Shown one piece after another: positions 8,968 through 11,215 of a stretch of DNA of 64,000 nucleotides (positions are counted from its first letter, which is position 1; every line of letters begins with the position of its first letter). Source of the DNA: Candidatus Sysuiplasma jiujiangense (GTDB lineage Archaea; Thermoplasmatota; Thermoplasmata; Sysuiplasmatales; Sysuiplasmataceae); assembly GCA_019721075.1 (NCBI GenBank), contig JAHEAD010000004.1, positions 1-64,000 on the forward strand. Direction: 5' to 3'. The position numbers were made by a program, and so were the translations under genes. The notes beneath the pieces were generated by a model, which ran no database searches, was not told where the DNA came from, and saw only the letters and a list, made by a program, of their open reading frames with translations.

Positions 8968-9510
8968 CTATTTTTCGTCAAATATGCAGTAAGCAGGGCT
9001 GTAAAACATGTTACCCTTCGAAGCGAAGACTTCAAAGTTCCCGTCAGACCCTTCAATGACAAGTGCAACTGAATATGCCTGCGTGAACCATCTTTGATGT
9101 GTCCTTGTATCGGTTGAGGAAAGAAAGCAGCCCTGGCCAGTGTGGGAGTGATACCATCCGACAATAAGTTCGCCATCTCTGATGCCGATCTCAAAATTGT
9201 CTCCGGTGTCCCTGTCTATTTCGACATGGTGTGCAGTTGCGATTGCCGGTAGTTCAACGACACCGGATATCCGTATCTTCATTTTCCCTCCGGAAAGGAA
9301 TGGTCTTCCAAGCAGATAGCCGAGTGCTTCCTTTCCCTCGGAAAAGGAGGTCCTGGCGCTAGCAATCGCCTTCCTTAAGGCCTCCGAGCAAAGAAAAACA
9401 TGTATATCCCGTGGAACCGGTGAAGGGCCGTGCTGACAGCAGCCCGGTTCTTCCTCCTCAGCCATTCTGAATTCGTATCCGCTGTGTACTTCAATTGGCA
9501 TTTTTCTCAA
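8968..9510 (-). CDS. JAMM/MPN+ metalloprotease (ubiquitin-like deconjugase)
   Basis: Zinc metallopeptidase of the JAB1/MPN+ (RPN11, AMSH) fold. All ligand and catalytic positions are present: Glu61 (KEALGYLLG), then HSH at 121-123 in GWYHSHTGQGCF, Ser131 and Asp134, matching E-x(n)-H-S/T-H-x7-S-x2-D. In known systems this class cleaves after the C-terminal Gly-Gly of ubiquitin-like proteins. Here the natural substrate is the neighbouring protein, whose Gly-Gly is followed by five residues. An acidic, Cys-containing extension covers about residues 17-30. It is the last gene of the E1-Ubl-E2-JAMM operon and overlaps E2. The start is TTG at 9510, or ATG at 9501 (177 residues). Confidence 0.92.
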   Translation of the reverse strand: MRKMPIEVHSGYEFRMAEEEEPGCCQHGPSPVPRDIHVFLCSEALRKAIASARTSFSEGKEALGYLLGRPFLSGGKMKIRISGVVELPAIATAHHVEIDRDTGDNFEIGIRDGELIVGWYHSHTGQGCFLSSTDTRTHQRWFTQAYSVALVIEGSDGNFEVFASKGNMFYSPAYCIFDEK

Positions 9511-9961
9511 TTTCCGTCAAATATCTTACTGCGGATTCGCAACTTTCAAAGCCGAGCGGCTCCTTTCGGTTTGGATTTTCGACAAGATGAGCGATTCCCG
9601 CAATCAGTGAATTCAACGTTCTTTCCGTTTTCCATTCCTGAAGCAGTTTCGTGCATACGATTCCTCCATTCTCTGGCGTGCTGATATTCGGATGGAATAT
9701 TCCGGATTGCCATATTATGCCTGGCTTCAGCACAGGGTAGTCCCTGAATACCACAATTCTGAAGCGGTGATCGCTCTTTTCCACAATCTTCCCGTCTTTC
9801 ATGCGGTCCAGTCCCCTCACACCTGTAAGACGGACATCGATAGTATAAGGGAAGTTCATGCCTGGCTCATCGCTATATTCGAATTCTGCGCCCTGTATCC
9901 CCTCCAGCATTTTCAGTTCGTTTCTCAACCTTCTCTTCAGCAATTCTAAAGGGATTGCCAT
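9491..9961 (-). CDS. E2-like ubiquitin-conjugating enzyme (UBC fold)
   Basis: A 156-residue protein with the E2 signature. It has a YPVLKPGIIWQS strand pair, the HPN motif at 90-92, the candidate catalytic Cys103 in ENGGIVCTKLLQEW, and the downstream Trp110, NSLIAGIAHLVENPNRKEPL helix and PNP-like turn. It would accept the ubiquitin-like protein from the E1 as a Cys103 thioester. Its start codon lies within the last codons of the ubiquitin-like gene, whose Gly-Gly codons form its purine-rich ribosome-binding site. Genuine E2s are rare in archaea; RWD-type inactive relatives lack the Cys, which is present here. Confidence 0.93.
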   Translation of the reverse strand: MAIPLELLKRRLRNELKMLEGIQGAEFEYSDEPGMNFPYTIDVRLTGVRGLDRMKDGKIVEKSDHRFRIVVFRDYPVLKPGIIWQSGIFHPNISTPENGGIVCTKLLQEWKTERTLNSLIAGIAHLVENPNRKEPLGFESCESAVRYLTEIEKNAN

Positions 9962-10203
9962 TGTCCTCCCTCGGGATCGGGAAGAAGGTCGATCGTATCA
10001 CCGTCATTGAGGCTTGCTTCCGAAACGGTTTTAGATGCCGAAACAAGTTTCTTTCCCACCTTCATTAGATAAGGTTCATCAGGCAATTCCCAGAACTCCA
10101 CTGCACTGTCCAGAACTTCCTGCAGTTTTGTGGAGTTGTCTACTTCCATAAGTGCACTGTTTCCCGTTTGCGTATTTCTTACGCTCAGTTTCATAGTTTT
10201 CAT
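9946..10203 (-). CDS. Ubiquitin-like modifier with C-terminal Gly-Gly plus tail
   Basis: An 85-residue protein with beta-grasp character: MKLSVRNTQTG hairpin, a central helix KLQEVLDSAVEFW, then GKKLVSASKTVSEASLNDGDTIDLLP, like ubiquitin's last strands. It ends in LLPDPEGGQWQSL, so a Gly-Gly at 79-80 is followed by QWQSL. The tail would have to be removed before activation, the job of the JAMM protease in the same operon. It starts directly after the E1 stop with GGAAGG upstream. It could be called a SAMP/MoaD relative, but the E2 next door argues for a protein modifier rather than only a sulfur carrier. Confidence 0.9.
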   Translation of the reverse strand: MKTMKLSVRNTQTGNSALMEVDNSTKLQEVLDSAVEFWELPDEPYLMKVGKKLVSASKTVSEASLNDGDTIDLLPDPEGGQWQSL

Positions 10204-11010
10204 TTATATCCTTCCATGGTTCTGACAATTTGGATTCACTTCAGCCACAATCTCCTCAATGCTGGTCGTCATTCCGTCGAACATCATAAGAACGCCGTTC
10301 TGCCTGATGCCTGAAATTATCTTTATGGCCTCAAGAGACTGGACAGATCCTATGATTCCCGGAATAGACGGCTCCGAGCCAATGTGCCGGGAGTAGGCAT
10401 TCGCTTCTCTGCCCGTGCACGTGTATGTGCGGTCAATCGTAGACAGGTGGCTGCCATTCACGGTGCACTCATAGCAGGCACCTGCAGGTGGTATAACGAC
10501 CTGCACGCGTCCGATCAGGCCGTCTATGCCGCCGTCGACGTAGGGAGTTCCGGCGAAAAAACAGTTTGAGTTGATATGGAGCCTCGTTTTCACCGAATCA
10601 ACACACCCTATTACGAGGGTGTATTTTGAAAAGAAGGTGTAATTCAGTCGCTCCGCATCCGTACGCATTGCCCGCAGGTTGCAGTCAGGATTAATCTCTC
10701 TCGCTCTTGAACGCACGACCTCTACCTTGCTTCTGGACTTATCCGCGTCCGCCCTGCTGAACAAAAAGCAGCGCCCAAGATTTGTAGTTTCAACCACGTC
10801 CCTGTCAACGACCGTAATCTGAGAAGGAGCATAGAGCACCAGGTTTTTGACAACCTCATTCCCGAGCGCACCCGCTCCTATGATGCATATCCTGGAAGAC
10901 TGCACTGCATCGAGATCAATTCCATCCACCAGCCTGACGCGCGAATACCTGTCCGCGCTTTTCAGCATGTTCTGTGTTCTGCTCACTTCTGCCCGAATGC
11001 ACTTATCCAT
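10204..11010 (-). CDS. E1-like ubiquitin-activating enzyme (ThiF/MoeB fold)
   Basis: Adenylating enzyme of the ThiF/MoeB/E1 superfamily, 268 residues, single domain. It has the nucleotide loop GAGALG (45-50), acidic VVDRDVVETTNLGRC (67-81, with the Arg finger), K91/K95 in DADKSRSKVE and Asp138 in GCVDSVKTR. A zinc site is formed by CYEC (179-182) and CQNH (262-265), so the fourth ligand would be His instead of the usual Cys. Cys198 in TYTCTG, just before GIIGSVQSLEAIK, is the likely thioester cysteine by alignment with MoeB. It is the first gene of the four-gene operon. A TATATAA directly before ATG 11010 suggests translation may instead begin at Met15 (10968). Confidence 0.93.
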   Translation of the reverse strand: MDKCIRAEVSRTQNMLKSADRYSRVRLVDGIDLDAVQSSRICIIGAGALGNEVVKNLVLYAPSQITVVDRDVVETTNLGRCFLFSRADADKSRSKVEVVRSRAREINPDCNLRAMRTDAERLNYTFFSKYTLVIGCVDSVKTRLHINSNCFFAGTPYVDGGIDGLIGRVQVVIPPAGACYECTVNGSHLSTIDRTYTCTGREANAYSRHIGSEPSIPGIIGSVQSLEAIKIISGIRQNGVLMMFDGMTTSIEEIVAEVNPNCQNHGRI

Positions 11011-11215
11011 TTATATACCGAGCGGGAGAATCCTGAACATGTCTGGAGGGAGTATTAAAGCAGGCTGACGCTGCCATATATGCCTGAAATCACCGTGGAA
11101 GCGCAACTTCTGGTATATCGGACTTATTCCGACCTGCTGTGGCGTTGCTTCAGCGTATAAAGGGGATTAAACATGGCCAGCGCAATCGCGTATAGTCCGG
11201 AATCGGTGAAAGGGC

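Follow-up and report, generated by a model that had tools for sequence, protein, structure and literature searches.

A compact modifier–E2 junction in an archaeal E1–modifier–E2–JAMM operon, with a precursor tail that probably arose by stop-codon loss

The window, by which we mean the whole 64-kb stretch of DNA that was analysed, carries on its minus strand four genes in the order E1–modifier–E2–JAMM. The last two are co-directional and overlap by 11 nt. The genes, and the features found where the modifier gene runs into the E2 gene, are as follows:

10204..11010, minus strand: gene for an E1-like activating enzyme of the ThiF fold (268 aa; Pfam ThiF, 6.8e-50)
9946..10203, minus strand: gene for a ubiquitin-like modifier (85 aa, ending DPEGGQWQSL)
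9491..9961, minus strand: gene for an E2-like ubiquitin-conjugating enzyme (156 aa, MAIPLELL...; Pfam UQ_con, 6.5e-12; catalytic Cys in GGIVCTKLLQEW)
8968..9501, minus strand: gene for a JAMM/MPN+ metalloprotease (Pfam JAB, 7e-11; HxHx7SxxD intact, GWYHSHTGQGCFLSSTD)
9946..9961, minus strand: overlap of the modifier and E2 frames, 16 nt
9964..9972, minus strand: the codons GAG GGA GGA (Glu-Gly-Gly), also the Shine-Dalgarno (SD)-like site of E2
9965..9969, minus strand: GGAGG, the SD core, 3 nt before the E2 ATG and complementary to the 16S 3' end
9949..9963, minus strand: codons of the QWQSL tail; 9961-9963 is the position of the TGA stop in relatives, here CAA

The initial annotation had read these genes as an E1/modifier/E2/JAMM operon, and the Pfam, AF2 and Foldseek assignments bear this out. 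The Pfam score of the modifier is barely above nothing. Its AF2 model, built from an alignment of orthologues, is a beta-grasp fold (pLDDT 87.5), and the PDB neighbours found with Foldseek are SUMO, ubiquitin and the Caldiarchaeum ubiquitin 6fno (E 1e-6). Across 37 orthologues there is no variation at P75, D76, P77, G79 and G80. The best curated neighbours of the E1-like protein are ThiF, MoeB and UbaA, all with scores far under the cut-offs, and in most of the 85 orthologous loci described below its gene precedes that of the modifier, a conserved arrangement. The E2 catalytic cysteine is retained in the window and in the main clade. The locus has the parts that define an archaeal ubiquitin-type conjugation operon, namely a beta-grasp modifier with Gly-Gly, a ThiF-fold E1, an E2 with its cysteine, and a JAMM protein with HxHx7SxxD. 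Judged from sequence, it is a member of the already known archaeal E1–modifier–E2–JAMM type and a predicted conjugation system. Relatives of the E2 are present in 8 of 8 examined genomes of the family to which the window belongs; across the class, 97 of 300 genomes have one. Relatives of the modifier are also found outside the class. In four genomes outside the class (G311, G322, G330, G344) there are two modifier matches per genome, possibly representing two parallel systems. A literature search found no paper on this E2-bearing operon in the phylum, which is not proof of absence. At the upstream end of the operon, the sequence TATATAA (11011-11017, minus strand) abuts the predicted E1 ATG at 11010. 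This suggests that the operon promoter is there and that the true E1 start may lie further downstream, at M15 (~10968), the point from which homologues align.

On the minus strand the modifier gene ends GAG GGA GGA CAA TGG CAA TCC CTT TAG, translated as E-G-G-Q-W-Q-S-L-stop; the ATG of E2 occupies 9961-9959. The initial annotation had placed this ATG inside CAA-TGG and had taken the purine run encoding Glu-Gly-Gly as the only SD-like sequence available to E2, and on both points it was right. In this genome the 16S rRNA has the 3' end GGATCACCTCCTTT, so GGAGG (9969-9965) pairs with it and is a bona fide SD match; a site complementary to the anti-SD thus lies within the upstream coding sequence at SD distance, as expected of an intragenic SD. 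The duplex is estimated at about -10.0 kcal/mol, a value that only ~2% of random 20-mers within coding sequences of this 64-kb window reach. There is no other ATG, GTG or TTG upstream of 9961 in the stop-to-stop frame of E2, and the motif M-x-(L/I)-P, conserved at the N-terminus of E2, supports the start at 9961. No TATA-like element of a separate E2 promoter could be seen by eye just upstream of E2. E2 is probably initiated at the ATG at 9961 using GGAGG as its SD. A programmed frameshift leading to a modifier–E2 fusion was also considered and rejected by inspection, as there is no slippery sequence at GGA GGA CAA and the tail-less relatives have a stop there. In four orthologous loci (L006, L007, L009, L082) the conserved E2 start has no ATG, GTG or TTG (CTG, ATT, CGG-ACG and ACG are found), and in L007 a single T-to-G change would abolish the stop of the modifier together with the candidate CTG start of E2.

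The initial annotation had called this junction an unusual overlap of protein and translation signals, a view that other gene pairs in the window and the literature (PMC2784483, PMC6728339, PMC10666635) contradict; features of this kind are common where operons are compact. Using a simple ORF model, 17 close pairs were found in the 64 kb, defined as co-directional genes in which the downstream start lies -40 to +20 nt from the upstream stop. Nine of these, including the present one, have an SD-like site (<= -7 kcal/mol) that lies at the upstream gene's 3' end or reaches into its stop (starts at 2497, 12394, 29710, 54149, 49077, 48380, 47680, 6483 and 9961), and three of the nine (2497, 48380, 47680) have overlaps of 22-26 nt. 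The proposal that the junction ties the expression of JAMM and E2 to the modifier likewise amounts to ordinary operon overlap. Pairs with an intragenic SD and termination-reinitiation are known from archaea and bacteria (PMC2784483, PMC6728339, PMC10666635) and resemble this one in having the SD of the downstream gene inside the 3' end of the upstream coding sequence, with start and stop overlapping. Their typical overlap is -4 or -1, which are also the commonest arrangements across 1,695 species (PMC10666635), whereas in the window it is 16 nt, after loss of a stop codon. Termination-reinitiation goes with stop/start overlaps of about 1-8 nt; the congeners, at 1-4 nt, fall in this range and the window does not. 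Classical -4/-1 reinitiation is less likely in the window than in the congeners, since the modifier stop lies 13 nt beyond the E2 ATG.

It could be argued that the Glu-Gly-Gly codons have been selected as a ribosome-binding site, so that the needs of E2 set the codon usage of the modifier. The strength of the window site, in the top 2% of 20-mers within coding sequences, and the presence of GGAGG also in the relatives L006-L009 would fit this. The effect was examined with a synonymous null, in which modifier codons upstream of the E2 start were resampled at locus-specific codon frequencies. Here the observed -10.0 kcal/mol compares with a null mean of -8.7 kcal/mol (p=0.36). In the 68 loci where E2 starts at most 9 nt from the Gly-Gly, the SD sites fall short of the null by a mean of 1.6 kcal/mol (z=-4.1 when combined by genus, with deeper phylogeny uncorrected), and the first Gly codon is GGC, which breaks GGAGG, in 50 of the 68. 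Selection of the Gly-Gly codons for SD strength was rejected on these grounds, and the reading as a whole appears improbable. Within the family of the window, six of nine loci have an SD that slightly exceeds the synonymous null in strength, with p of 0.04-0.06 for L008 and L009, and weak local selection on the SD is possible there. The dual coding and SD role is better seen as a by-product of the peptide and the gene spacing, because GAR GGN GGN is purine-rich by default.

The next question is why the modifier carries residues beyond its Gly-Gly. The initial annotation held that it cannot end at Gly-Gly, as the E2 start and its SD would force the tail, a built-in control coupling the maturation of the modifier to JAMM and to the synthesis of E2. 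To compare orthologous junctions, 91 E2-bearing loci were taken; of these, 85 show upstream a legible end of the modifier with the invariant P[DE]P[EQ]GG. The tail past Gly-Gly is 0 aa long in 42 of them, 1 aa in 24, 2 aa in 8 and 3-15 aa in 11. Tail and overlap occur together at 22 junctions, a tail without overlap at 21 (in 11 genera), an overlap without a tail at 7, and neither at 35. Wherever the overlap reaches at least 13 nt, at seven loci, there is a tail, as geometry dictates. An intact JAMM also adjoins the operon, and in Caldiarchaeum the pro-ubiquitin, with a tail of nine residues, is refractory to E1 until the JAMM protein Rpn11 cuts it after Gly-Gly (PMC5654768, PMC6043591). These points speak for a forced tail, but the wider comparison goes against it. 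The three congeners (L002, L003, L004) read GGTGGATGATG; in all three the modifier stops at DPEGG*, its TGA sharing nucleotides with the E2 ATG. In close relatives the SD sits within the Gly-Gly codons and yet the stop falls at Gly-Gly, by way of a GGN-TGA-TG stop/start overlap; this geometry, with overlaps of 1-4 nt and no tail, is shared by L002-L006, L008 and L009. Conversely, tails occur without any overlap. In L044, L046, L047, L052 and L055 the tail is H or Q and the stop lies 14-15 nt before the ATG, mostly with an intergenic AAAGGAG; L048, L061, L063 and L066 likewise have tails and long gaps, and some tailed, non-overlapping loci have gaps of 9-18 nt and an intergenic SD of their own. 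Outside the class, one-residue tails are seen in L111 and L112, whose E2 lies 86-101 nt away; in L108-L110, L113 and L115 Gly-Gly-stop comes immediately before the ATG. Tail sequences vary even between sister species, and JAMM is kept in 38 tail-less loci. Tailed orthologues without overlap were what the initial annotation itself had named as evidence against its proposal, which fails in both directions. A forced tail with built-in control can be given almost no credence; the feature was real and correctly read, and the mechanistic story around it was mostly wrong.

Some tails stand out by themselves. Three loci of family f11 (L028, L037, L057) have unusually long ones, 13-15 residues past Gly-Gly; in L058, a congener of L057, the tail is one Ala. 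In L120 and L121, outside the class, DPVGG replaces DPEGG and the tail is dictated by an E2 overlap of ~25 nt.

The origin of QWQSL can be traced in the family of the window, where the codon directly past Gly-Gly is TGA at seven of nine loci, CAA in the window and GGA in L007. As TGA is now CAA in the window species, translation would continue for five codons in the alternative E2 frame, up to the next in-frame stop, adding QWQSL. In L007, where this stop was lost independently (TGA to GGA), the same reading gives GRRYP. The same outcome is seen in other lineages: L027/L032 (FSGPPY, YSGPPL), L064/L069 (CRWDFPALC, CRWGSPGLC) and L076 (RQWVW). By parsimony on an E2 tree, overlaps of at least 13 nt arose five times and tail presence changed at least eight times; these counts are approximate, as the tree was built quickly and some of its branches are long. 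The missing stop might instead be an artefact of assembly or consensus, the real modifier ending DPEGG* as in the congeners; TGA is there in all three of them and in most of the family, and the window species is represented by one genome. Yet TGA to CAA needs two substitutions in frames that are otherwise intact, and the independent loss in L007 and the same outcome in the unrelated L027/L032, L064/L069 and L076 also make an artefact very improbable.

Very probably, then, the junction is of an ordinary compact kind, within a widespread E1–modifier–E2–JAMM operon of archaea, and its tail comes from a stop loss in the lineage of the window species. Directly observed are the sequences, the geometry, the stop position in relatives and the lack of SD excess over the synonymous null; the steps that link them would be the following. 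The modifier C-terminus Pro-Asp-Pro-Glu-Gly-Gly is purine-rich whichever codons are used, and with E2 starting within a few nucleotides the purine stretch would land at the SD position. In most relatives the modifier stop is at Gly-Gly or 1-3 residues past it and adjoins the E2 start, and E2 could there be translated by termination-reinitiation, with help from the intragenic SD. In the lineage of the window species, the TGA that overlapped the ATG of E2 would have changed to CAA, and QWQSL, once added by read-on, would be removed by the neighbouring JAMM before E1 activation.

Such trimming by the window JAMM is plausible, and the earlier claim that a tailed modifier needs proteolytic maturation has a precedent in the Caldiarchaeum homologue, where trimming before E1 activation was demonstrated (PMC5654768, PMC6043591). 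Rpn11 of Caldiarchaeum removes conjugated ubiquitin too (PMC5654768, PMC6043591). Among the orthologous loci an intact JAMM stands beside 38 tail-less and 42 tailed modifiers. As the 38 tail-less loci keep it, JAMM is not retained merely for tail trimming and must do something else too; its other general job is most likely deconjugation. In genus g18 (L073, L075, L082, L093-L099) the genomes share, where JAMM would lie, a homologous gene with no HxHx7SxxD metal site (pseudo-JAMM). In clade g18 all seven loci have such a protein (no HxHxnD), and the six modifiers that are visible are all tail-less, ending PDPQGG or PDPEGG. The pattern suits a co-dependence of tail and JAMM, in a single lineage and not significantly. 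In genus g49, related to g18, five genomes (G091, G118, G130, G140, G145) have weak modifier matches that stop short of Gly-Gly, possibly degenerate or repurposed modifiers. In family f7 (L087-L091) a modifier-like domain without Gly-Gly is fused in frame to an E2 domain whose catalytic Cys position is replaced (VK, VS, IH, VR), and no E1 or JAMM match was found within 1.5-kb flanks; from its sequence this looks like a dead modifier–E2 fusion kept for another role. A further idea is that the stop loss made the modifier an obligatory pro-modifier, shifted E2 from reinitiation to SD-driven initiation and made active modifier dependent on JAMM. We regard this as rather unlikely. If it were true, repeated stop losses in separate lineages alongside an active JAMM, together with uniformly tail-less modifiers in g18 with its dead JAMM, would make tail and protease co-dependent.

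The comparison corrects an attractive but wrong inference, in that gene overlap does not explain the precursor form of ubiquitin-like modifiers. Orthologues in more than 30 genera show that in this archaeal system precursor tails are gained and lost around a fixed Gly-Gly end. With 42 tail-less and 43 tailed junctions, a dead-JAMM clade and a clade of fused, cysteine-less E2, the operon offers a natural experiment on the co-evolution of tail and protease.

Among known systems, the bacterial E1-E2 antiphage system (PADLOC E1-E2) was rejected as a match, since only the ThiF core of the E1 matches parts of the models, and the E2, modifier and JAMM of the window gave zero PADLOC hits. The SAMP systems of haloarchaea with the desampylase HvJAMM1 are alike in having a Gly-Gly modifier, a ThiF/UbaA-like E1 and a JAMM protease. 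The window JAMM scores weakly against the desampylase model, all curated cut-offs for SAMP systems are missed, and the window operon differs by adding an E2-like enzyme. The ubiquitin operon of Caldiarchaeum subterraneum (CsUb, E1, E2, the E3 srfp and Rpn11/JAMM; PMC5654768, PMC6043591) is similar in its clustering of a Gly-Gly modifier of the ubiquitin fold with E1-like, E2-like and JAMM proteins. No RING-finger E3 gene was noticed between or next to the four genes, within the 1.5-kb flanks that were inspected. The CsUb precursor extends nine residues past Gly-Gly, compared with five in the window, which are absent in close relatives. Unlike the Caldiarchaeum operon, that of the window has a JAMM gene co-directional with and overlapping E2, a short ThiF-type E1 of 268 aa, and the order E1–modifier–E2–JAMM.
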